Of a DNA stretch of 64,000 nucleotides, positions 4,271 through 63,365 are shown piece after piece (position 1 is the first letter of the stretch; each line of letters starts with the position of its first letter). The stretch is from Sphingobium chungbukense. GTDB taxonomy: Bacteria; Pseudomonadota; Alphaproteobacteria; Sphingomonadales; Sphingomonadaceae. The notes beneath the pieces were generated by a model. The model worked only from the letters and a program-made list of their open reading frames with translations, had not been told where the DNA came from and made no database searches. A program made the position numbers and the translations under genes. The stretch covers positions 1 through 64,000 of the forward strand of contig NZ_LBIC01000014.1 in the NCBI RefSeq assembly GCF_001005725.1. The letters run 5' to 3'.

Positions 4271-4336
4271 CCTAACATTCTCCCCACAAACGCCCCTTGA
4301 GAATCGTCCTTGCGCCAACGGTAGGTTTTGCATATG

Positions 4337-4352
4337 GTGCATCGCGTTGCAT
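4337..4352. promoter_or_regulatory. Candidate operator, TGCA-type inverted repeat
   Basis: GTGCATCGCGTTGCAT lies between the divergent EamA gene and the dioxygenase operon, 56 bp before ATG 4408. It matches 12 of 16 positions of the perfect dyad at 54031-54046. The position suits control of one or both divergent promoters. The cognate regulator is unknown. Confidence 0.4.
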
Positions 4353-4407
4353 GTATAGCACGAATCGACTATGCGGCACTCGTAACAAAAAGCATGGGAG
4401 CGATGCG

Positions 4408-5787
4408 ATGAATGGATCGTCGGCACTCGTCGATAACGCCGGTGCGAGCCAGTCTCGCCGGGTGTTCTGGGATCAAGATGTCTATCAGCTGGAGCTGGAG
4501 CGAATATTCTCGCGATGCTGGCTCATGCTCGGGCATGATTCGCTAGTTCCCAAACCGGGCGACTTCATTACGACGTACATGGCAGAAGACCGTGTCATCT
4601 TGTCGCGGCAGCCGGACGGTTCGCTGAAGGCGTTCATCAATTCCTGCACGCACCGCGGCAACCAGATCTGTCATGCTGACAGCGGCAGCGCCAAGGCGTT
4701 CGTGTGCAATTATCATGGTTGGGTTTTCGGTCAGGATGGTTCGCTCGTCGATGTTCCGATGGAAGAGCGGTGCTATCACAGCGATCTCGACAAATCCAAG
4801 CTAGGGCTCGCGCCGATCCGGGTCGAAACTTACAAGGGCTTCATCTTCGGCTGCCATGATCCCGAAGCGCCATCGCTTGAGGACTATCTGGGGGACTTCT
4901 GCTGGTACCTCGATACGATCTGGGACGGTCCGGACGGTGGTCTGGAACTGGTCGGGCCGCCGTTGAAAAGCACCCTCGCCTGCAATTGGAAAGTCCCGAC
5001 CGAGAACTTCGTCGGCGATGGGTATCACGTGGGCTGGACGCATGCCGCCGCTCTCCAGATGATCGGGGGCGAGCTGGCTGGCCTGTCGGGCAATCGCGCC
5101 GACATGCCGTTTGACGACCTTGGTCTGCAATTCACCATGCGGCATGGCCACGGGTTTGGCCTGATCGATAATGCGGCGACTGCGATCCACGTCAAGCGCG
5201 ACGGGTACGTCAAATATCTCGAGCAGACGCGGGGCGGAATTCGCGAAAAATTCGGGCCGGAGCGCGAACGGCTCTATGTCGGTCACTGGAATACGTCGAT
5301 CTTCCCCAACTGTTCGTTCCTCTACGGAACCAACACCTTCAAGATCTGGCATCCGCGCGGGCCGCATGAAATCGAGGTCTGGACCTATACCATGGTGCCG
5401 AAGAATGCCGACACCGAAACTAAGCGGTCGATCCAGCGCGAAGCGATCCGTTCATTTGGTACGGCGGGAACGCTCGAAAGCGACGATGGCGAAAACATGT
5501 CGTCGGCCACCTACAACAACAACGGTATCATCACCCGAAAGGGGCGGATGAATTCGAGCATGGGCAAGGACCGCGAAGGGCCGCACCCCGTCTATCCAGG
5601 AATTGTCGGGGTCAGCTTCATCGGCGAAACCTCGTATCGAGGCTTTTATCGTTTCTGGCAAGAAATTCTCGATGCGCCAGATTGGGCCGCCATCCGGGCC
5701 AATGACGATACCTGGGATGCAATGTGGACCAACCGTAATTTCTGGCCTGAACGTCTGTCGGCGAAGCAAGCCGAGCCGCAAGACTGA
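4408..5787 (+). CDS. Naphthalene-dioxygenase-like oxygenase, alpha subunit
   Basis: This 459-residue protein is the catalytic subunit of a ring-hydroxylating dioxygenase, which adds O2 to an aromatic ring to give a cis-dihydrodiol. The Rieske [2Fe-2S] ligands are C80, H82, C100 and H103. The mononuclear iron motif NFVGDGYHVGWTH gives D204, H207 and H212, almost the same numbering as D205/H208/H213 of naphthalene dioxygenase, and the surrounding NWK..TENFVGD..HVGWTH is of the NahAc type. ATG 4408 follows GGGAG. It leads an operon with its beta subunit. No reductase lies nearby; the only ferredoxin in the window is at 52.6 kb. The aromatic substrate cannot be read from sequence. Confidence 0.9.
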   Translation: MNGSSALVDNAGASQSRRVFWDQDVYQLELERIFSRCWLMLGHDSLVPKPGDFITTYMAEDRVILSRQPDGSLKAFINSCTHRGNQICHADSGSAKAFVCNYHGWVFGQDGSLVDVPMEERCYHSDLDKSKLGLAPIRVETYKGFIFGCHDPEAPSLEDYLGDFCWYLDTIWDGPDGGLELVGPPLKSTLACNWKVPTENFVGDGYHVGWTHAAALQMIGGELAGLSGNRADMPFDDLGLQFTMRHGHGFGLIDNAATAIHVKRDGYVKYLEQTRGGIREKFGPERERLYVGHWNTSIFPNCSFLYGTNTFKIWHPRGPHEIEVWTYTMVPKNADTETKRSIQREAIRSFGTAGTLESDDGENMSSATYNNNGIITRKGRMNSSMGKDREGPHPVYPGIVGVSFIGETSYRGFYRFWQEILDAPDWAAIRANDDTWDAMWTNRNFWPERLSAKQAEPQD

Positions 5788-52145: not shown

Positions 52146-52634
52146 CTAGATCGGGCGGACCATCATCGTATCGATGAGGTGGGTGTCGAAGATTGCGGTC
52201 TTGGAAAGGAAGCGCGAGCCAGCGCCGGAAACGTCGATTTGATCGACATATTTTCCGGAATTGTAGATCGACGTCTGACCGTCGTTGCGCGTCATCAGGA
52301 CCACATAGTTGGTCTGTGTGGTGACGATCTGCCCGCTGGTCGACTTCACGCGGGTCGGACCGAGAATATGCCGGTAGCTGTGCGCGGGAAAGATATTGGC
52401 GCGGCGCAAAGAGACGATGCGATCGACCAGCATGCCGCGGCTGTCGCAGAACACCGCAGCCAGGTTCAGCGAACGATTGTGGTTCTCCGCTGAGATCACA
52501 CTGTACTGGCACTTTTCTTCAAACAGGTTAGGCCATTCTTCCAACCGGTCGTCATCGATCAGTTCCGCATGAAGCGCATTAAGTTGCGCAGCGGCATGCT
52601 GAAACTGCATCTGCTCAAGGGTGGGAAGGCCCAT
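52146..52634 (-). CDS. Rieske hydroxylase, beta subunit
   Basis: This 162-residue SnoaL-fold subunit has ELIDDDRLEEWPNLF, CDSRGMLVDRIVSLR and TRNDGQTSIYNSGKY, as in AndAd and AhdA2-type small subunits. ATG 52634 overlaps the ferredoxin stop by one base (TGATG). It pairs with the alpha subunit that follows. Confidence 0.9.
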   Translation of the reverse strand: MGLPTLEQMQFQHAAAQLNALHAELIDDDRLEEWPNLFEEKCQYSVISAENHNRSLNLAAVFCDSRGMLVDRIVSLRRANIFPAHSYRHILGPTRVKSTSGQIVTTQTNYVVLMTRNDGQTSIYNSGKYVDQIDVSGAGSRFLSKTAIFDTHLIDTMMVRPI

Positions 52635-52960
52635 CAGGCTGCTCCTTCGGGCTTCGTGATGCAGACCCAACCATCCTCGATTTCGACCGGATAGGACGCG
52701 ATCGCCACTTGGCAGGGAAAGGCCTTGGCTGCGCCGGTCTTGATGTCGAACGAGCCGCCATGGAACGGACACTCGATGATGTCGCCATCCTGATATCCGT
52801 CGGTCAGCATGGCATTGCCGTGAGTGCAAAGATTGTCGGTAACGAAAATCTCGCCATCAACATTATATACTGCGAGGGCGGGCATTCCTTCGGCGAACGC
52901 CGCGACCGGCTCGCCGTCTTTTACGCCGGCAACTTCACAAAGGCGCAATTGGTTCGACAT
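52634..52960 (-). CDS. Rieske-type ferredoxin
   Basis: This 108-residue [2Fe-2S] Rieske ferredoxin has ligands in LCTHGNAML and CPFHGGSFD. It carries electrons from a reductase to ring-hydroxylating oxygenases. It is the only ferredoxin gene in the window and may serve several of the oxygenases. No reductase gene accompanies it. Confidence 0.93.
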   Translation of the reverse strand: MSNQLRLCEVAGVKDGEPVAAFAEGMPALAVYNVDGEIFVTDNLCTHGNAMLTDGYQDGDIIECPFHGGSFDIKTGAAKAFPCQVAIASYPVEIEDGWVCITKPEGAA

Positions 52961-53004: not shown

Positions 53005-53904
53005 TCACAGCAGCGGAACGTCCATTCCGTAACCAGCAGCCTCGTTGCCATGACCGAAGATGTCACGGGTGTAGTATTCCTGCTGGCTCGGCGCCTGGCG
53101 CGCACCCCAGCCAAATTCCCACAGCCAACCCGACGGGTTAGCGCAGTAAAACGTCAGGGCCTGGTCGTTGGCGTGCTTGCCCAACTGGAGCGCGACGTCA
53201 ATCTTCTTCGCACGCACAACGTCATGGGCCATGCCGAGATCATCGAGTTCGGTGTATTCGAACATCAGGTGATTGATGCGCTTTTCCATCGGCCCAAGAC
53301 CGAAAGCAACAGAATGCTGTCGTTCGTTGCAGTGCATGAAGTAGGGCTGGGCAACCATGCCGTTCGGCAGATGAAGGTGGTATTCGACTGAACCGCGCAG
53401 ACCCAGCAGTTCATAGAAACGAGCCGCCGCCTCGACATCGTCCTGGCGCAGAATGCAGTGCCCAACGCCTTGCGATCCGGTCAGGAACTTGCCGAACATC
53501 GGACGGCCAGGATGAAACGGCTTGTGCGTATCGACCTGGGGGCCGAAGAAGATCTCGGTCGGATTGCCGCCCGGATCGGCCAGCTTGAGTAGCCCGAGAA
53601 CGCGGCGCTCGCGCGCTTCGGCTTCGGTGCCCACGGTGAAGGGGATTCCCGCCGCGCTCAGCTTTTCCTGCATCGCGGCGAATTCCTGCGGCCCGGCCAC
53701 GCGCCAGCCCATGTAGGCCAGGTCATCGCTGCCATCAGCGTGCAGAACGATGCGGTGATGCCAAAGGTCCATCCGCAGATAGAGCCGATCCCCTTCGCCT
53801 TCATCGACGACTTCCATGCCGGCGACTTCGGCGGCGTAAGCGCGCCAGGCAGCGAGATCGGAAACGGAAAGACCAAGATAGCCGAGTTCGGTGACGACCG
53901 ACAT
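53005..53904 (-). CDS. Type I extradiol dioxygenase, BphC/NahC-like
   Basis: This 299-residue two-domain vicinal-oxygen-chelate protein binds Fe(II) through H149 (GVGHCIL), H212 (INHLMFE) and E263 (WLWEFG). It cleaves bicyclic or monocyclic catechols next to the diol. As first gene of the operon that includes the isomerase at 50269, it likely acts on a dihydroxynaphthalene- or dihydroxybiphenyl-like compound. It starts divergently from the benzoate-dioxygenase-like operon. Confidence 0.93.
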
Positions 53905-54135: not shown

Positions 54136-55554
54136 ATGGAACTCAATGATAAAATCGGCGGCAGGATTGCCGACTTGCAGGGCTTGAAAGGGCGCATGCG
54201 CGCTTGGCTCAAGAAGGATCACGAGCGCGGGATCTTCCAGCTGGACCGCGCCGCTTTCACCGAAGCTGCGCTGTTTGAGCTCGAGATGAAGTACATCTTC
54301 GAACGGAACTGGGTCTACCTCGCGCACGAGAGCCAGGTTTCCAAGCCGAACGATTTCATCACCACGAAAATCGGCCGCGTCCCCATCCTTGTAACCCGGG
54401 ACAAGTCCGGCGATGTCGGCGCCTTCGTGAATGCCTGTTCGCACCGTGGCGCGCGCCTGTGCCGCGAGCGGGCCGGCAACAAGCGCAACCACATGTGCCC
54501 GTTTCATGGTTGGACGTTCTCGTCCGGGGGCGACCTGCTGGACGTCACCGATGAGAGCATCGGGGGCTATCCGGAGGCATTCAATCGCGCCGATTTCGGG
54601 CTTCAACCGGTCGCCCGGGTGGAAAGCTACCGCGGCTTCATTTTTGCCAGCCTCTCCGCCGATGTCGTCCCGCTGGTCGATCACCTCGCCGGCGCGCGGG
54701 ATTTCATCGATATCCTGGTGGACCAGTCGAAGTCCGGCGCAATGGAAGTTTTGCCCGGAACCAACCGCTACCGCTATCACGGCAACTGGAAGATGCAGGT
54801 CGAGAACGGGCTCGACGGCTATCACGTCATGACCACGCATGCCAACTACTTCATGACGGTTCAGCGCCGCGTCGAAGGCATTTCGAAGAACGAAACCAAG
54901 GCGATTAGCTTCAATGGCTTCACCGCGCGCGATGGCGGGTCGTTCTCGTTCCACAACGGACACACGGTGTTGTGGGCCGACTATGCCAACTTCATGGATC
55001 GCCCCAATTTCGAGATCATCGACTGGCTCGAAGAGTCCTACGGCGCCGAAAAGGCCAAGTGGATGAACAAGCGCATCCGTAACCTGCAGCTGTTTCCCAA
55101 CGTCTTCCTGATGGACCAGACCAGCACGCAGATCCGCATCATCCAGCCGCTGGCCCTGGATGAGACCGAAGTCAGCACGGTGTGCATCGCCCCGGTCGGC
55201 GAAAGCCCCGAGGCGCGGGCCCTGCGGCTGCGTCAGTATGAGGATTTCTTCAATTCGACCGGCATGGCGACCCCGGACGACCTGACCGAATTCAACAACT
55301 GCCAGACCGGGTATGGCGCCGGCGAAGGCCGCTACAACGAGATGTCGCGCGGTTCGACGCGCTGGGACACCGGCCCGGGCAAGTTCGGCGAGCCGCTCGA
55401 TTTCAATGTGGTGCTGAGCAGCCCGGCGGTTGCCGACGAAGGCCTCTATGTGGCGATCCATGACGAATGGCTCACGCTCATGGAAAAGGCCATCGACAGC
55501 GAGTGCAGCGAGCTTGCCGCCTTCCTTGAGCGTTCACTGGAGAAGGCACGATGA
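54136..55554 (+). CDS. Benzoate-dioxygenase-like oxygenase, alpha subunit
   Basis: This 472-residue Rieske oxygenase has C101, H103, C121, H124 (CSHRGARLC, CPFHGW) and iron ligands D227, H230, H235 in GLDGYHVMTTH, in the style of BenA/XylX. It would dihydroxylate a benzoate at C1-C2. GGGAGAGG precedes ATG 54136. Benzoate-type systems use a reductase (BenC) directly, but none is nearby. The next genes are its beta subunit and a PdxA-like dehydrogenase rather than BenD, so a dicarboxylate or substituted benzoate is possible. Confidence 0.9.
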   Translation: MELNDKIGGRIADLQGLKGRMRAWLKKDHERGIFQLDRAAFTEAALFELEMKYIFERNWVYLAHESQVSKPNDFITTKIGRVPILVTRDKSGDVGAFVNACSHRGARLCRERAGNKRNHMCPFHGWTFSSGGDLLDVTDESIGGYPEAFNRADFGLQPVARVESYRGFIFASLSADVVPLVDHLAGARDFIDILVDQSKSGAMEVLPGTNRYRYHGNWKMQVENGLDGYHVMTTHANYFMTVQRRVEGISKNETKAISFNGFTARDGGSFSFHNGHTVLWADYANFMDRPNFEIIDWLEESYGAEKAKWMNKRIRNLQLFPNVFLMDQTSTQIRIIQPLALDETEVSTVCIAPVGESPEARALRLRQYEDFFNSTGMATPDDLTEFNNCQTGYGAGEGRYNEMSRGSTRWDTGPGKFGEPLDFNVVLSSPAVADEGLYVAIHDEWLTLMEKAIDSECSELAAFLERSLEKAR

Positions 55555-56045
55555 CCGCATTCCATTCGCGCTGGCTGGCGGTTTCCCGCTTCATCGGTCA
55601 GGAAGCCATGGCGCTTGACGACAAGGACTGGGATGCCTGGCTGGCGCTCTATCACGAAGAGGCGGAATACTGGGTTCCAGCCTGGGACGATCACGAACGG
55701 CCGACTGCGGATCCGCAGAACGAAGTCTCGCTGATCTACTATCCCAACCGGGGCGGGCTTGAGGATCGGGTGTTCCGGATCAGGACCCGGCGCTCGGCGG
55801 CGAGCACGCCGCAGCCACGCACGGTTCACCAGTTCTCCCTGCTGTCTGCTGAGGAGAGCGATGACCAGGTGCATGCGCGGACGTCTTGGACCACGGTTTC
55901 GGTGCTGGAAGGCAAAGTCGCCACTCTCAGCGGGTGGGCCTTCTATGATCTCGAACCTCGGGATGATTCGTTCGTGATCCGCCGCAAGAAGACGGTTGTC
56001 GTCACCGATCTGTTCCAAGAAGTAGCCGATGTCTACAGCCTCTGA
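55551..56045 (+). CDS. Benzoate-dioxygenase-like oxygenase, beta subunit
   Basis: This 164-residue BenB/XylY-like small subunit has DDKDWDAWLALYHEEAEYWVP and VSLIYYPNRGGLEDRVFRI. The start overlaps the alpha stop (ATGA) and its end overlaps the PdxA-like gene by 17 nt, so the three are tightly coupled. Confidence 0.92.
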   Translation: MTAFHSRWLAVSRFIGQEAMALDDKDWDAWLALYHEEAEYWVPAWDDHERPTADPQNEVSLIYYPNRGGLEDRVFRIRTRRSAASTPQPRTVHQFSLLSAEESDDQVHARTSWTTVSVLEGKVATLSGWAFYDLEPRDDSFVIRRKKTVVVTDLFQEVADVYSL

Positions 56046-57021
56046 GCGGGTGCGCCCCGTCGTGGGGACGATGATCGGTGATCCCGCCGGGATCGGACCC
56101 GAAGTGGCTGTCAGGGCGCTGGCCGACGGTGCCGTACACACGGATTCGATCCCCGTGCTGGTCGGGTCTGCTGCGGCGGTAGAGCGGGCGCTCGATTTCA
56201 CTGGCACCAAGGCACGGCTGCGGGTGATGCGCGGCTTCGAAAAACCCAGCGACGATCCCGCGATCATCGACGTCATCGATACCGGCGCGCTGCCCGATGG
56301 CGTTCTGCCCCTGGGCGAGGACACCGAGGCCGCCGGGCACGCCACCGCGCAATGGCTGGATGAGCTCGACGCGTTGGCCCGCGACGGTTCTTTCGCCGCC
56401 ACGATCATGGGGCCGATCAGCACTGGTTCGCTTAAACTTGCCAAGAAGCTCGACAGGGTCATCAGCCCGACCCCGGGCGAAAGCTATCTGGTGCTGCTGA
56501 CCGGGCCGCTCAGGGTTGCGCATCTCACCGACCACATGTCGCTGCGGCAAGTGATCGACGTCATTTCAGCCGATCTCGTCGCCACGGCGGTGGGGCAACT
56601 GCACGAGGCCATGCAATCGTGGGGCATCGCCCAACCGCGGATCGCGGTTGCCGGTCTCAACCCACATGCCATGGGCGACGAGGATCGCCTTGAAATTGCG
56701 CCTGGGATTGAAGCCGCGCGGGCAAGGGGCATCGATGTCGAAGGGCCTATCGCGCCTGACTCGGTCTTCCGCCACTGCATCGAGGGTCGCTACGACATGG
56801 TCCTGGCGATGTTCCACGATCAGGGCCACATCGCGGTCAAGACCTGGGGCTTTTCGGGCAATAGCGTGATCATCATGGGGCCGCCGTACCTGCACATGTC
56901 GGTGGCCCATGGCACCGCCTACGACATCGTCGGTACCGGCAAGGCCGATGCCGCGATGATGCTGAGCGCGATGCGCACTTGCGGACGACTCGCTTCGGGC
57001 CGCGGTTTCGAACAAGCTTAG
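56029..57021 (+). CDS. PdxA-family dehydrogenase, probable cis-diol carboxylate dehydrogenase
   Basis: This 330-residue protein of the PdxA fold keeps the three metal-binding histidines in DHMSLRQV, AGLNPHAMG and MFHDQGH. PdxA itself oxidises 4-phosphohydroxythreonine in vitamin B6 synthesis, but TphB, the terephthalate diol dehydrogenase, is in the same family. Its overlap with the BenB-like gene strongly suggests that it oxidises and decarboxylates the cis-diol acid made by that oxygenase. Confidence 0.87.
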   Translation: MSTASERVRPVVGTMIGDPAGIGPEVAVRALADGAVHTDSIPVLVGSAAAVERALDFTGTKARLRVMRGFEKPSDDPAIIDVIDTGALPDGVLPLGEDTEAAGHATAQWLDELDALARDGSFAATIMGPISTGSLKLAKKLDRVISPTPGESYLVLLTGPLRVAHLTDHMSLRQVIDVISADLVATAVGQLHEAMQSWGIAQPRIAVAGLNPHAMGDEDRLEIAPGIEAARARGIDVEGPIAPDSVFRHCIEGRYDMVLAMFHDQGHIAVKTWGFSGNSVIIMGPPYLHMSVAHGTAYDIVGTGKADAAMMLSAMRTCGRLASGRGFEQA

Positions 57022-57031
57022 GGAGAAGACC

Positions 57032-58312
57032 ATGAACGCCGAAACCATGCCCGTCGCCGCGGGGTCGGAGCCGACTGCGGTCGATTACGCAGTCTATCAC
57101 AGCCAAGCGATCTTCACTGCCGAACAGGAAAACATCTTTCGCGGACAGACCTGGTGCTACCTCGGCCTCGAAGCCGAGCTGGCCAACAGCGGCGATTTCC
57201 GTTCGACCCATGTCGGCAATACTCCGGTGGTGGTGACGCGGGCAACCGATGGCACCATCCATGCCTGGGTAAATCGCTGCGCCCACAAGGGCGCAACCGT
57301 GTGCCGCTCGCTGCGTGGCAACCAGGCCGACGGGGCGTTCGTCTGCGTCTATCACCAGTGGGCCTACGACGCGACCGGTGCGCTTGTCGGCGTGCCGTTC
57401 CGGCGGGGGCTGAAAGGCGTGGGCGGCTATTCGAAGGAATTCAATATGGCCGAGCATTCGCTGGAGCGGTTGCGGGTCGAGACATTCGGCGGCCTCGTGT
57501 TCGGCACCTTCAACCCGACCATCGCCCCGCTCGACGACTTTCTGGGTCCAGTGATGCGCAAATACATTCAGCGCGTCTTCCAGCGCCCGGTCAAGGTTCT
57601 GGGCTATGCGCGACAGTTCATGGCCGGCAACTGGAAGCTCTATTCGGAAAACAGTCGTGACAGCTACCACGGCGGTCTGTTGCACCTGTTCTATCCCACT
57701 TTCGGCATCTACCGCCAGAGCCAGGAAAGCGCGGGTCTGGTTTCGGACGAGGGCTACCACACCGTCTTTACCGTGTCTAAGCCCAAGGGCGATGTCGACT
57801 ACGGCTCGTTCGGTGACGAGGCCAACCGCGAGATGCAGGGTGAGGCCAAGTTGCAGGACGAGCGCCTGCTGGCATTCCGCCCGGAGATCGCTGATGATGT
57901 CGGACTGCACATCCAGTCGATCTTCCCGTCTGTCGTTGTCCAGCAGATCCAGAACACCCTCGCCACCAGGCAGATCGTGCCCCACGGGACCGACAAGACC
58001 GAGCTGGTCTGGACCTATTTCGGCTATGCCGACGATGATGATGAAACGACTCGCCACCGCCTTCGCAACCTCAACCTGGTTGGACCGTCTGGGTTGATTT
58101 CGATGGAAGACGGCGAAGCGGTCGAACTGTGCCAGCAGGGCACGATCGGTGCCGAAGGCAAGCGCAGCTTTGTCGAGATGGGCGGGGACGATGTCCGACC
58201 GTCATACGCCCCGATGGGTATGGATGAAAATTCCGTGCGCGGGTTCTGGAAGGGCTATCTCGGGCTGATGGGCAATGCCTTGGCCGATCTCGCAGCGGAG
58301 GGCCGGGCATGA
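57032..58312 (+). CDS. Salicylate/anthranilate-type Rieske hydroxylase, alpha subunit (second copy)
   Basis: This 426-residue oxygenase has C83, H85, C105, H108 (CAHKG, CVYHQW) and D210, H213, H218 in RDSYHGGLLH, with YHQWAYD and GVPFRRGLKG as in the copy at 50859-52121. The two are clearly homologous but well diverged. GGGAGAAG precedes ATG 57032. It likely makes catechol for the dioxygenase at 60483. Confidence 0.88.
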   Translation: MNAETMPVAAGSEPTAVDYAVYHSQAIFTAEQENIFRGQTWCYLGLEAELANSGDFRSTHVGNTPVVVTRATDGTIHAWVNRCAHKGATVCRSLRGNQADGAFVCVYHQWAYDATGALVGVPFRRGLKGVGGYSKEFNMAEHSLERLRVETFGGLVFGTFNPTIAPLDDFLGPVMRKYIQRVFQRPVKVLGYARQFMAGNWKLYSENSRDSYHGGLLHLFYPTFGIYRQSQESAGLVSDEGYHTVFTVSKPKGDVDYGSFGDEANREMQGEAKLQDERLLAFRPEIADDVGLHIQSIFPSVVVQQIQNTLATRQIVPHGTDKTELVWTYFGYADDDDETTRHRLRNLNLVGPSGLISMEDGEAVELCQQGTIGAEGKRSFVEMGGDDVRPSYAPMGMDENSVRGFWKGYLGLMGNALADLAAEGRA

Positions 58313-58797
58313 GCGTTGCAGCCGAAGTAGCGCAAGTCGCGCAAAGTGCGATCGACGATTTCAACGCGGCTTACGGGCTTTGCCTTGATGATGACCGGCT
58401 CGAGCAATGGCCTACGCTGTTCGTTGACGATTGCCTGTACCAGGTGATCGCGCGCGAGAATGTCGATAACGGCTTGCCCGCAGCTGTGATGTATTGCGAC
58501 AGCAAAGGGATGCTGGCGGATCGGGTTGTCGCGCTGCGCAAGGCAAACGTCTTCCCCGAACATTTCAACCGGCACCTGATCGGGCGTGCGGTGATCACCG
58601 GCGCGGAAGGCAACCAGGTTTCTGCTGAAGCCAGCTATGTCGTCTTCCAGACCCGTAACGATGGTGAAACGCGTATCTACAATGCCGGCAAATATGTCGA
58701 CTGGTTCGATCTTAGCGGTGGAACCGTTCGTCTGAAGAGCCGGACCTGCATCTACGACACGCTGCGAATCGCCACCCTGTTGGCGACCCCGATCTGA
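58309..58797 (+). CDS. Rieske hydroxylase, beta subunit (second copy)
   Basis: This 162-residue small subunit has LDDDRLEQWPTLFVDD, CDSKGMLADRVVALRKANVFPEH cut here into its conserved blocks, and TRNDGETRIYNAGKYVD. It is the same length as the copy at 52146-52634 and similar throughout. Its start overlaps the alpha stop (ATGA). Confidence 0.9.
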   Translation: MSVAAEVAQVAQSAIDDFNAAYGLCLDDDRLEQWPTLFVDDCLYQVIARENVDNGLPAAVMYCDSKGMLADRVVALRKANVFPEHFNRHLIGRAVITGAEGNQVSAEASYVVFQTRNDGETRIYNAGKYVDWFDLSGGTVRLKSRTCIYDTLRIATLLATPI

Positions 58798-59612: not shown

Positions 59613-60464
59613 ATGGCAAGCGCGACATTGGACACGAGCCGACCGGAAATCGCCAATTCGTTCGTCATCGGCGGAAGCTCGACCAATTATCATGACGTCG
59701 GCGAGGGCGATCCGGTCCTGTTGGTTCATGGTTCCGGGCCTGGCGTGACTGCATGGGCCAACTGGCGCCTGAACATTCCGGTTCTTGCTCAGGATTTCCG
59801 GGTCATCGCGCCCGACATGTTCGGTTTCGGCTATTCGGACAGCAAGGGCCGGATCGAAGACAAGCAGGTCTGGGTCGATCAGCTCGCCAGTTTTCTCGAC
59901 GGATTGGGCATCGACAAGATTTCGATGGTCGGCAACTCGTTCGGTGGCGGGATCACGCTGGCATTCATGATTGCCCACCCCGATCGGGTGGAACGCGCCG
60001 TTCTGATGGGGCCTGCAGGGCTCAACTTTCCGATTACTCCTGCGCTCGACAAGGTTTGGGGCTACGTGCCGTCAGTTGAGGCCATGCGCGAATCGCTCAA
60101 GTACCTTGCCTGGGATCACAGCCGCCTGACGGAGGATCTGATCCAGTCGCGCTATGTCGCCAGCGCCCGGCCCGAAGCACATGAACCCTATCATGCAACG
60201 TTCGGCGGCGCCGACCGCCAGGCCAACGTGGCGATGCTCGCCAGCCGCGAGGAGGACATCGCCGCAATCGCGCACGAGACCTTGATCCTGCACGGGATTG
60301 CCGATCAGGTGATCCCGCTCGATTCTACCGTACGCTTGGCCACGCTGATGCAGCGGGCCGATCTGCACCTGTTCGCCGAATGCGGACACTGGGTGCAGAT
60401 CGAGCGGATGGCAAGTTTCAACCGGATGGTTGCCGAGTTCTTTAAGCATGGCCTCAAGGCCTGA
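59613..60464 (+). CDS. xylF: 2-hydroxymuconate-semialdehyde hydrolase
   Basis: This 283-residue C-C hydrolase has LLVHGSGPGVTAWANW, nucleophile GNSFGGG, HGIADQVIPLD and catalytic His in CGHWVQIER, the DmpD/XylF pattern. It hydrolyses the ring-fission product to 2-hydroxypentadienoate and an acid. TTG 59604 with AAAGGA upstream is an alternative start. It opens the meta-pathway operon after a terminator; GTGCAATG at 59515 may be a control half site. Confidence 0.9.
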   Translation: MASATLDTSRPEIANSFVIGGSSTNYHDVGEGDPVLLVHGSGPGVTAWANWRLNIPVLAQDFRVIAPDMFGFGYSDSKGRIEDKQVWVDQLASFLDGLGIDKISMVGNSFGGGITLAFMIAHPDRVERAVLMGPAGLNFPITPALDKVWGYVPSVEAMRESLKYLAWDHSRLTEDLIQSRYVASARPEAHEPYHATFGGADRQANVAMLASREEDIAAIAHETLILHGIADQVIPLDSTVRLATLMQRADLHLFAECGHWVQIERMASFNRMVAEFFKHGLKA

Positions 60465-60482: not shown

Positions 60483-61406
60483 ATGGCTTTGACTGGTGTA
60501 ATTCGTCCTGGCTATGTCCAGCTCAGGGTTCTGGACTTGGACGAGGCCATTATCCACTACCGCGACCGGATTGGTCTAAACTTCGTCAATCGCGAGGGGG
60601 ATCGGGCCTTTTTCCAGGCGTTCGACGAATTCGATCGTCACAGTATCATCCTTCGCGAGGCCGATCAGGCGGGCATGGATGTGATGGGCTTCAAGGTCGC
60701 CAAGGACGCGGACTTGGACCATTTTACCGAGCGCTTGCTCGATATCGGTGTCCATGTCGACGTGATCCCGGCGGGGGAAGATCCCGGTGTAGGCCGCAAG
60801 ATTCGGTTTAACACGCCGACACAGCACGTCTTCGAACTTTACGCCGAGATGGCGCTGTCGGCCACCGGTCCGGCCGTCAAGAACCCCGATGTCTGGGTCG
60901 TGGAGCCACGTGGCATGCGTGCCACCCGCTTTGATCACTGTGCGCTCAACGGCGTGGATATAGCCAGTTCGGCCAAGATTTTTGTCGATGCGCTTGATTT
61001 CTCAGTCGCCGAGGAACTGGTCGATGAAACCAGCGGCGCCCGGCTCGGCATCTTTCTTAGCTGCAGCAACAAAGCACACGATGTCGCCTTCTTAGGCTAT
61101 CCCGAAGACGGTAAGATCCACCATACCTCGTTCAACCTGGAATCCTGGCACGATGTTGGCCATGCCGCCGACATCATCAGCCGCTACGATATTTCGCTGG
61201 ATATCGGGCCGACCCGTCATGGGATCACCCGCGGGCAGACGATCTACTTCTTCGATCCCTCGGGCAACCGCAACGAAACCTTCAGCGGCGGTTACATTTA
61301 TTATCCGGACAATCCGCAGCGCCTGTGGCAGGCAGAGAACGCCGGCAAGGCCATCTTCTACTACGAAAAGGCGCTCAACGACCGCTTCATGACGGTGAAC
61401 ACCTGA
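60483..61406 (+). CDS. xylE: Catechol 2,3-dioxygenase
   Basis: This 307-residue extradiol enzyme has the same length as XylE, with metal ligands H152 (RFDHCALNG), H214 (HHTSFNLE) and E265 (NRNETFSGGY). It cleaves catechol to 2-hydroxymuconate semialdehyde. GGAGAGGAG precedes ATG 60483. It sits between the hydrolase and semialdehyde dehydrogenase genes that use its product. Confidence 0.95.
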   Translation: MALTGVIRPGYVQLRVLDLDEAIIHYRDRIGLNFVNREGDRAFFQAFDEFDRHSIILREADQAGMDVMGFKVAKDADLDHFTERLLDIGVHVDVIPAGEDPGVGRKIRFNTPTQHVFELYAEMALSATGPAVKNPDVWVVEPRGMRATRFDHCALNGVDIASSAKIFVDALDFSVAEELVDETSGARLGIFLSCSNKAHDVAFLGYPEDGKIHHTSFNLESWHDVGHAADIISRYDISLDIGPTRHGITRGQTIYFFDPSGNRNETFSGGYIYYPDNPQRLWQAENAGKAIFYYEKALNDRFMTVNT

Positions 61407-61880: not shown

Positions 61881-63365
61881 ATGACTTCCGTCTCCTCCTC
61901 TCCAATCACGGATACTATCCTGAACTTCATCGACGGGTCCTATCGCGAAGGCAGCGAGGGCAAGTCGTTTTCCAACGTCAATCCGGCCACCGGGGCCGAG
62001 ATCGGGGTTGTGCACGAAGCAAGCCAGGCAGACGTCGCCGACGCCGTGGCTGCGGCCAAGGCCGCGCTTACCGGGCCGTGGGGCAAGATGACCACGGCCG
62101 AACGGGTCAAGCTGATCACCGCCGTGGCGACCGAGATCGAACGCCGAGCGGATGATTTCCTGGCTGCCGAAGTGGCCGACACCGGCAAGCCGCGTCATGT
62201 TGCGTCGCATATCGATATTCCGCGCGGAGCCGCTAACTTCCGCATGTTCGCCGATGTCGTCTCGACGATGCCGGGCGAAAGCTTCAACACGCCAACCCCC
62301 GATGGCGGCCAGGCGTTCAACTATACCGTGCGCAAGCCCAAGGGTGTGGTCGCCGTCGTCTGCCCGTGGAACTTCCCGCTGCTGCTGATGACCTGGAAGG
62401 TTGGCCCGGCGCTTGCCTGCGGCAATACCGTGGTGGTCAAGCCGTCCGAGGAAACGCCTCGTACCGCTGCCCTACTGGGCGAAGTGATGAACGCGGTGGG
62501 CATGCCCAAGGGTGTCTACAACGTCGTCCATGGATTCGGTCCGGGTTCGGCCGGCGAATTCCTCACGTCCAACCCCGATGTCGATGCCATCACCTTCACC
62601 GGCGAAACCGGCACCGGACAGGCCATCATGCAGAAGGCCGCGACCGGCGTTCGCGACATCTCGTTCGAACTCGGTGGCAAGAACCCGGCGATCGTGTTCG
62701 CCGATGCCGACCTCGACAAAGCGGTCGAGGGTCTGTCGCGCTCGGTCTTCCTGAACACCGGGCAGGTCTGCCTCGGAACCGAGCGGGTCTATGTCGAACG
62801 GCCGATCTTCGATGCCTTCGTGGCGCGGATGGCGGCGGCGGCGCAGGACTTCAAGCCGGGCGTGACCGGTGATCGCGCCTATCTCGGCCCTCTGATCAGC
62901 GCCGAGCACCGCGAGAAAGTGCTGGGCTACTATCGCCGTGCGGTCGAGGACGGGGCCACCGTGGTCACCGGCGGCGGCGTTCCTGAAATCTCGGGCGCGG
63001 AAGCCGGCGGCTTCTTCGTGGAACCGACGTTGTGGATCGACGTCGCCCACGGCGACACCGTGATGCGCGAGGAAATCTTCGGGCCGTGCTGCGGCATCTT
63101 ACCGTTCGACAGCGAGGACGAGGTGATCGCGCTGGCAAACGATACGGTATACGGCCTGTGCGCCTCAGTCTGGACCGAAAACCTGTCCCGCGGACACCGC
63201 GTGGCGGCGGCGATGGAGGTGGGGGTGTGCTGGGTCAATTCCTGGTTCCTGCGCGATCTGCGCACGGCTTTCGGCGGGTCCGGCCATTCCGGCATAGGCC
63301 GGGAAGGCGGGGTGCACAGCCTCGAATTCTACACCGAGATCACCAACATCTGCGTAAAGCTTTAA
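61881..63365 (+). CDS. xylG: 2-hydroxymuconate-semialdehyde dehydrogenase
   Basis: This 494-residue NAD-dependent aldehyde dehydrogenase of the XylG/DmpC type has VVCPWNFPLLLMTWK, base in FELGGKNPAIV, nucleophile in GQVCLGTERVYVER, and ending HSLEFYTEITNICVKL. It oxidises the semialdehyde to 2-hydroxymuconate, the oxalocrotonate branch that runs beside the hydrolase branch. Confidence 0.93.
   Translation: MTSVSSSPITDTILNFIDGSYREGSEGKSFSNVNPATGAEIGVVHEASQADVADAVAAAKAALTGPWGKMTTAERVKLITAVATEIERRADDFLAAEVADTGKPRHVASHIDIPRGAANFRMFADVVSTMPGESFNTPTPDGGQAFNYTVRKPKGVVAVVCPWNFPLLLMTWKVGPALACGNTVVVKPSEETPRTAALLGEVMNAVGMPKGVYNVVHGFGPGSAGEFLTSNPDVDAITFTGETGTGQAIMQKAATGVRDISFELGGKNPAIVFADADLDKAVEGLSRSVFLNTGQVCLGTERVYVERPIFDAFVARMAAAAQDFKPGVTGDRAYLGPLISAEHREKVLGYYRRAVEDGATVVTGGGVPEISGAEAGGFFVEPTLWIDVAHGDTVMREEIFGPCCGILPFDSEDEVIALANDTVYGLCASVWTENLSRGHRVAAAMEVGVCWVNSWFLRDLRTAFGGSGHSGIGREGGVHSLEFYTEITNICVKL

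Follow-up and report, generated by a model that had tools for sequence, protein, structure and literature searches.

In the leading 64 kb of the 87-kb contig C14 of the 5.5-Mb Sphingobium chungbukense genome (hereafter the window), the genes of a benzoate-type dioxygenase are followed directly by a gene of the PdxA family (benAB-pdxA), whose product carries the name of a vitamin B6 enzyme in public databases. The overlap of this gene with the oxygenase gene is conserved, the encoded protein has kept the metal site of PdxA and lost its phosphate site, and three other genomes have benAB-pdxA and no BenD-type dehydrogenase. These observations therefore point to diol oxidation, and we lean towards the PdxA-like protein being a metal-dependent decarboxylating dehydrogenase of benzoate-type cis-diols, analogous to BenD. 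Such an enzyme would solve the BenD step a second time with an unrelated protein, and would explain sphingomonads that have a benzoate-type dioxygenase and lack BenD. Given the public annotation, dozens of genomes may conceal this pathway step, those of sphingomonads and marine degraders of polycyclic aromatic hydrocarbons (PAH).

The benAB-pdxA operon

54136..55554, + strand: benA/xylX-like large subunit of a benzoate/toluate-type Rieske dioxygenase, 472 amino acids (TIGR03229, 565 bits; cut-off 781)
55551..56045, + strand: benB/xylY-like small subunit, 164 amino acids (TIGR03232, 160 bits; cut-off 226; PF00866)
56029..57021, + strand: PdxA-family protein, 330 amino acids, probable decarboxylating cis-diol-carboxylate dehydrogenase (PF04166, 228 bits)

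A sequence-only reading of this DNA had described a BenAB-like oxygenase coupled to a PdxA-type dehydrogenase, with an overlap of 17 nt between the PdxA-like gene and the beta subunit gene. The three open reading frames (ORFs) were found as described. The benA-like and benB-like genes overlap by 4 nt, and the ATG of the pdxA-like gene at 56029 lies within the benB-like gene, which ends at 56045. No benC is present in the operon. For both subunits the top NCBIfam models are those of BenA and BenB, with scores under the cut-offs; the benA gene of the benABCD cluster on contig C5 of the same genome likewise misses the cut-off of 781, with 724 bits. The large subunit is 49.4% identical to XylX of TOL and 48-50% to the two other BenA proteins of the genome, and 26.5% to the oxygenase of RHA1 that we take to be TpaAa. 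The small subunit is 43.6% identical to XylY of TOL. Three benzoate-type dioxygenase loci are thus found in this genome: benABCD (C5:532600-536330), benA-benB-benD (C12:148035-150700) and benAB-pdxA in the window (54136-57021).

To describe the conservation of the gene pair, neighbourhoods were mapped at 80 related loci from named genomes and on 7 plasmid stretches, the stretches differing in length. The pdxA ATG stands at the exact 17-nt overlap in 41 of the 44 benB/pdxA pairs, counting those on plasmids (exceptions L083, L095 and L099), and the overlap persists down to protein identities of 59% for BenB and 73% for PdxA. Since it recurs in so many pairs of diverged proteins, the overlap is more than chance. 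All 38 loci with a PdxA at least 73% identical to that of the window (L038-L075) have benB adjoining pdxA. An oxygenase alpha gene was present within the fetched stretch at 59 of the 63 loci of the clade (none at L079, L087, L092 and L093); in the next branch, that of Chloroflexi, none of 17 loci had one. Among relatives of about 40% identity, other oxygenase pairs frequently precede PdxA, as does a hydrolase in several of these loci.

Two side observations concern individual loci. In some of the relatives of about 40% identity, a distant short-chain dehydrogenase/reductase (SDR), 29-33% identical to XylL, follows PdxA directly: L093:8984-9703, L096:9003-9722 and L097:8991-9710. The PdxA of L098, labelled a Klebsiella pneumoniae metagenome-assembled genome (MAG), groups tightly with that of L099, a Betaproteobacteria MAG, and is adjoined by oxygenase and hydrolase genes; the L098 contig is probably mis-binned.

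The following scheme is proposed. Translation of the three overlapping genes is probably coupled. The BenAB-like oxygenase (XylXY type), with a shared ferredoxin and reductase, would hydroxylate C1 and C2 of benzoate or a methylbenzoate. The PdxA-family protein, predicted to hold a divalent metal via H169, H213 and H263, would use NAD(P)+ to oxidise the C2 hydroxyl; the resulting beta-keto acid would lose CO2 and yield a catechol, the substrate for XylE. The predicted reaction and place in the pathway are those of BenD/XylL, the SDR-type 1,6-dihydroxycyclohexa-2,4-diene-1-carboxylate dehydrogenase; the families, however, are unrelated, BenD/XylL having the SDR fold and the window protein the PdxA domain and fold. 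The protein may additionally serve a neighbouring oxygenase of the AhdA1d type.

BenD and TphB, the dehydrogenase of terephthalate degradation, carry out the same chemistry, in which the C2 hydroxyl of a 1-carboxy-1,2-diol is oxidised and CO2 is lost; PdxA catalyses a matching reaction on a phosphorylated beta-hydroxy acid. Because the chemistry of the three matches, a PdxA-type enzyme beside a benzoate dioxygenase needs no second carboxylate on its substrate. The earlier suggestion that it implies one is unsupported, given this and the position of the protein outside the TphB clade (see below). For TphB itself, PMC13040137 describes a metal-dependent dehydrogenation with subsequent loss of CO2. 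The sequence-only reading had preferred a carboxylated or para-substituted benzoate to benzoate itself. A para-substituted substrate is compatible with the data; the exclusion of benzoate finds no support, as XylXY of Sphingobium sp. PNB converts both benzoate and p-toluate (PMC4048848). Benzoate and toluates appear to be the likeliest substrates in S. chungbukense.

Metal site and phosphate site of the PdxA-like protein

The PdxA-like protein scores far above the cut-off of 27 with the Pfam PdxA family (PF04166) and falls under every NCBIfam PdxA cut-off listed (240.6 against 470 for the best, 203.6 against 290). It is 100% identical to its pNL1 counterpart over 330 residues. A further PdxA is encoded on contig C21 of the genome and passes two curated PdxA cut-offs (414 against 378 and 348 against 290 bits).

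Active-site residues were surveyed in an alignment of 97 family proteins, 67 of which belong to the window clade. E. coli PdxA numbering is used, with H166, H211 and H266 taken to be the metal-binding histidines; the roles assigned to H136, T137, N283, R292, D296 and the other surveyed positions are likewise those in the E. coli enzyme. The metal triad corresponds to H169, H213 and H263 in the window protein, so that all three histidines are kept, as had been noted earlier. H166, H211, H266, D247, D267 and K274 are invariant in 97/97 proteins. The loop bearing H136 and T137, the phosphate-anchor loop, is deleted in 67/67 members of the window clade, and the loop after H211 is reduced from 12 to 7 residues, again in 67/67. 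D296 is replaced in 67/67 and R292 in 63/67. The window protein itself shows a gap, a gap, V280 and H289 at H136, T137, N283 and R292, respectively. In the Chloroflexi relatives used as a control, H136, R292 and D296 are kept in 17/17; N283 is replaced there too, and is not telling. Among the 7 control rows of PdxA and PdxA2, one or two deviate at each of these positions (H136 is kept in 5; T137, N283, R292 and D296 in 6 each). This residue pattern indicates that the branch has kept the machinery for beta-hydroxy-acid oxidation and lost the residues expected to hold a phosphate.

The structure predicted for the protein (predicted local distance difference test score, pLDDT, 92) matched PdxA and PdxA2 structures with Z of 34-39 (one chain 27.9; 1ptm 35.7) and TphB structures with Z of 30-33, the next fold reaching only 17. 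TphB is of the same family, as the sequence-only reading had stated, and of the same fold. The closest solved structures by sequence are those of PdxA2 (D-threonate 4-phosphate dehydrogenase; 6e85 and 2hi1). PdxA (4-hydroxythreonine-4-phosphate dehydrogenase) and PdxA2 share the fold and the metal-site residues with the window protein, which differs from them in the two shortened loops and in the replacement of N283, R292 and D296.

BenD-type dehydrogenases and published evidence on counterparts

Among 249 genomes sampled from the family, the PdxA branch was found at E 1e-90 or better in 4, among them S. chungbukense, G202 and G282. BenD-type SDRs were at first scored on 10 candidates per genome, and all candidates were then scored for G202, G282, G085 and G045. 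With all candidates scored, no BenD-type SDR was found in G202 (99% complete, about 100 contigs), G282 (98%, about 340 contigs) or G045 (the genome of L083), the best XylL matches being at most 37% identical. Each of the three has a benA-like gene (53, 62 and 53% identity), a benB-like gene just upstream of pdxA, and a PdxA with the same loop deletions as the window clade. The G202 locus further holds a LysR regulator, a TonB receptor, a transporter of the major facilitator superfamily, an alpha/beta hydrolase, a ferredoxin reductase, a Rieske ferredoxin, an AMP-binding enzyme and a second oxygenase. Of the sequence evidence, these genomes argue most strongly that a PdxA-type protein can act alone as the dehydrogenase. 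Coupling of a benzoate-type oxygenase to a PdxA-family dehydrogenase, the core of the earlier proposal, is supported by them together with the conserved overlap, the metal site and the loss of the phosphate site.

The proposal that PdxA stands in place of BenD is correct for the operon and fails for the genome. Contig C5 carries benA, benB, benC and benD consecutively, with BenC and BenD above their cut-offs; contig C12 carries benA, benB and benD by a gene of the catechol 1,2-dioxygenase type; and C14 itself encodes an XylL-type protein at 81793-82569. This last protein passes one family of that name (367 against 322) and misses a stricter BenD family (313 against 380). Simple replacement of BenD in this genome is ruled out by its three BenD-type SDRs. 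pNL1 and pLA1 also carry an XylL-type protein each.

In Sphingobium sp. PNB, XylXY together with ferredoxin and reductase converted benzoate to catechol and p-toluate to 4-methylcatechol when expressed in E. coli. The genes xylX and xylY overlap there with the ORF that follows them, and an XylL is reported (PMC4048848). From the gene order, this following ORF would be the PdxA-type gene. PNB XylXY is the counterpart of the window pair by name and gene order, and only the oxygenase was assayed there. Of the 4-hydroxythreonine-4-phosphate dehydrogenase, the PNB authors wrote that its role 'could not be determined' (PMC4048848). The XylXY loci of pNL1 and pLA1 have the same gene order as the window. 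The pLA1 PdxA-type protein of Novosphingobium pentaromativorans was detected in the proteome and, in favour of the proposed role, rose on phenanthrene (log2 0.722; pyrene 0.252), as did XylX and XylY (0.487 and 0.399 on phenanthrene). For XylL each of the three comparisons has the entry MB (PMC3946609), which we read as seen only in marine broth. On a scaffold of a phenanthrene-degrading consortium, the same dehydrogenase lies by benzoate dioxygenase subunits, with a BenD-type enzyme elsewhere (PMC5591006). A diol role of the PdxA-type protein has thus already been suspected in print, as an annotation.

Several results weigh against the proposed role. With TOL XylL as query, the S. chungbukense genome shows three closely similar proteins (61, 55 and 49% identity), followed by a gap to at most 38%, and the XylL-type gene on C14 lies in the same region, about 25 kb downstream of the pdxA-like gene. 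When 48 genomes holding the PdxA clade were tested for a BenD-type SDR (E of at most 1e-40), 44 had one; L050 was omitted as the same strain as L043, and the test covered neither L087-L091 nor more distant loci. The four without are L051, L080 and L084, all MAGs, and L083, titled uncultured and of no given completeness. In G202, G282 and G045 no intradiol dioxygenase was found, the S. chungbukense genome giving 4 as a positive control, and no XylE relative was found in a search made without a positive control. In Cycloclasticus and other gammaproteobacteria with a PdxA of 54-60% identity, an AhdA1d-type gene follows PdxA directly in 7 loci without adjoining benAB. In the PNB work, catechols were formed in E. 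coli by XylXY, ferredoxin and reductase, and no PdxA-type gene is named among those amplified (PMC4048848). The pLA1 protein falls on benzo(a)pyrene (log2 -0.274), and all the pLA1 ratios, which are ratios of the exponentially modified protein abundance index (emPAI), are small (PMC3946609). No functional study or enzymatic test of this PdxA branch was found in the literature searched, which is weak evidence of absence as subscription papers lay mostly outside the search.

Because no intradiol dioxygenase was found in the three genomes lacking BenD, catechol is not certain as the product there; one G202 contig that was searched also gave no match to BphC or XylE. We put forward more tentatively, with less than even confidence, a general statement: that a third branch of the PdxA family, marked by two shortened active-site loops, consists of benzoate-type cis-diol dehydrogenases, which act as a backup to BenD/XylL in most of their sphingomonad and marine PAH-degrading carriers and replace it outright in some sphingomonads (G202, G282 and G045). 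If this were true, a textbook step of aromatic catabolism would have been taken over by a non-homologous enzyme.

Partner oxygenase and alternative roles

The right part of the window corresponds, with identical gene order, to the aromatic catabolic region known from pNL1 of Novosphingobium aromaticivorans, and the locus is the catabolic region of pNL1 type that sphingomonads have. The genes around the operon are:

52634..52960, - strand: Rieske ferredoxin (AhdA3-type; profile match), probable shared electron donor
53005..53904, - strand: bphC-type extradiol dioxygenase, divergent from the operon (TIGR03213, 407 bits; above the cut-off of 366)
57032..58312, + strand: AhdA1d/BphA1d-type large subunit, salicylate 1-hydroxylase type (NF041684 AndAc, 484 bits; cut-off of 750 missed)
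58309..58797, + strand: AhdA2d-type small subunit (NF041685, 179 bits; cut-off of 230 missed)
59613..60464, + strand: xylF-type meta-cleavage product hydrolase (PF00561, in a longer ORF; same position in pNL1)
60483..61406, + strand: xylE-type catechol 2,3-dioxygenase, the expected catechol sink (TIGR03211, 418 bits; above the cut-off of 320)
61881..63365, + strand: xylG-type 2-hydroxymuconic semialdehyde dehydrogenase (TIGR03216, 868 bits; above the cut-off of 693)

By analogy with PNB, the Rieske ferredoxin probably serves as the shared electron donor; a ferredoxin reductase gene lies further along C14, outside the window. The pdxA-like gene sits between two ring-oxygenase pairs, the AhdA1d-type alpha gene being the next gene on its 3' side. 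The pLA1 counterpart of this alpha gene is named salicylate 1-hydroxylase alpha subunit (PMC3946609).

The neighbouring AhdA1d oxygenase is the main competitor as partner of the PdxA-like protein. The protein might mainly serve this oxygenase, acting on diols of other aryl carboxylates such as bicyclic PAH-derived acids, with the benAB link secondary and the benzoate diol left to XylL. We regard this as unlikely, yet as the alternative to be taken most seriously. It gains from the 7 gammaproteobacterial loci described above, where the AhdA1d-type alpha is 60-63% identical to that of the window, and from the BenD-type SDRs of 44/48 genomes. Naphthalene does not yield benzoate. In the PAH cluster of Cycloclasticus pugetii, a PdxA-annotated gene is highly expressed on naphthalene, at the 95th percentile or above (PMC11099662), which also speaks for this alternative. 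However, a BenA-type oxygenase (46-49% identity) is encoded elsewhere in 9 of the 10 gammaproteobacterial genomes searched and could be the partner of PdxA there. Salicylate and o-halobenzoates, established substrates of the AhdA1d class, need no dehydrogenase. The Sphingopyxis loci and L083 have benAB-pdxA without an adjoining AhdA1d, and the conserved overlap is with benB.

Oxidation of some other beta-hydroxy acid, a lower-pathway or dead-end product with no ring diol, is improbable. PdxA and D-threonate 4-phosphate dehydrogenase do act on non-aromatic beta-hydroxy acids, and the PNB authors' inability to assign a role leaves room for such a substrate; the loss of the phosphate-site residues, the position between two ring-oxygenase pairs and the oxygenase alpha gene in 59/63 clade loci speak against it.

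It is very unlikely that the protein is a TphB-type dehydrogenase for a para-carboxylated substrate or one with a second carboxylate elsewhere. TphB/TpaB (PDB 4aty, 8zhy-8zj7) does share the PdxA fold, the metal triad and the loss of R292 and D296 (R292 in 6/6 TphB), and its gene likewise follows an oxygenase beta gene with a short overlap. The window protein is 34% identical to the RHA1 protein that we take to be TpaB, and 4aty is the best solved match of the latter. In contrast to the window protein, TphB retains full-length loops, its oxygenase is of a different type (that of the window is 49% identical to XylX against 26.5% to TpaAa), and a reductase gene adjoins it. The downstream genes of the window serve catechols rather than protocatechuate. 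In a tree of 71 proteins, obtained by leaving out 26 near-identical rows of the 97, the window branch (42 rows) and TphB (6 rows) form separate clades, each with 100/100 support. Membership in TphB was rejected on the clade, the differing oxygenase partner and the two shortened loops. A tree joining both in one clade was not rejected (approximately unbiased, AU, test p 0.0775), and one or two origins of diol oxidation are therefore both possible; the two branches perhaps reached it separately, and no claim of separate origin is made.

A spare pdxA for vitamin B6 synthesis, suggested by the database product name only, was rejected as hardly credible, since the C21 copy passes the curated cut-offs, the window copy passes none of those listed, and the phosphate-site residues are gone.

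Two further oxygenases were observed. At L078:5250-6503 and related Cycloclasticus loci, the oxygenase gene that diverges from PdxA encodes a protein with about 55% identity to AhdA1c, of the carboxylated-substrate class. If it is rhdPS1 of PMC11099662, an equation made by gene order only, a lower-pathway role is likelier than the proposed first step on naphthalene. At the left end of the window (4297-5787), a further ORF of the Rieske oxygenase alpha type scores 150 bits with the BenA model.

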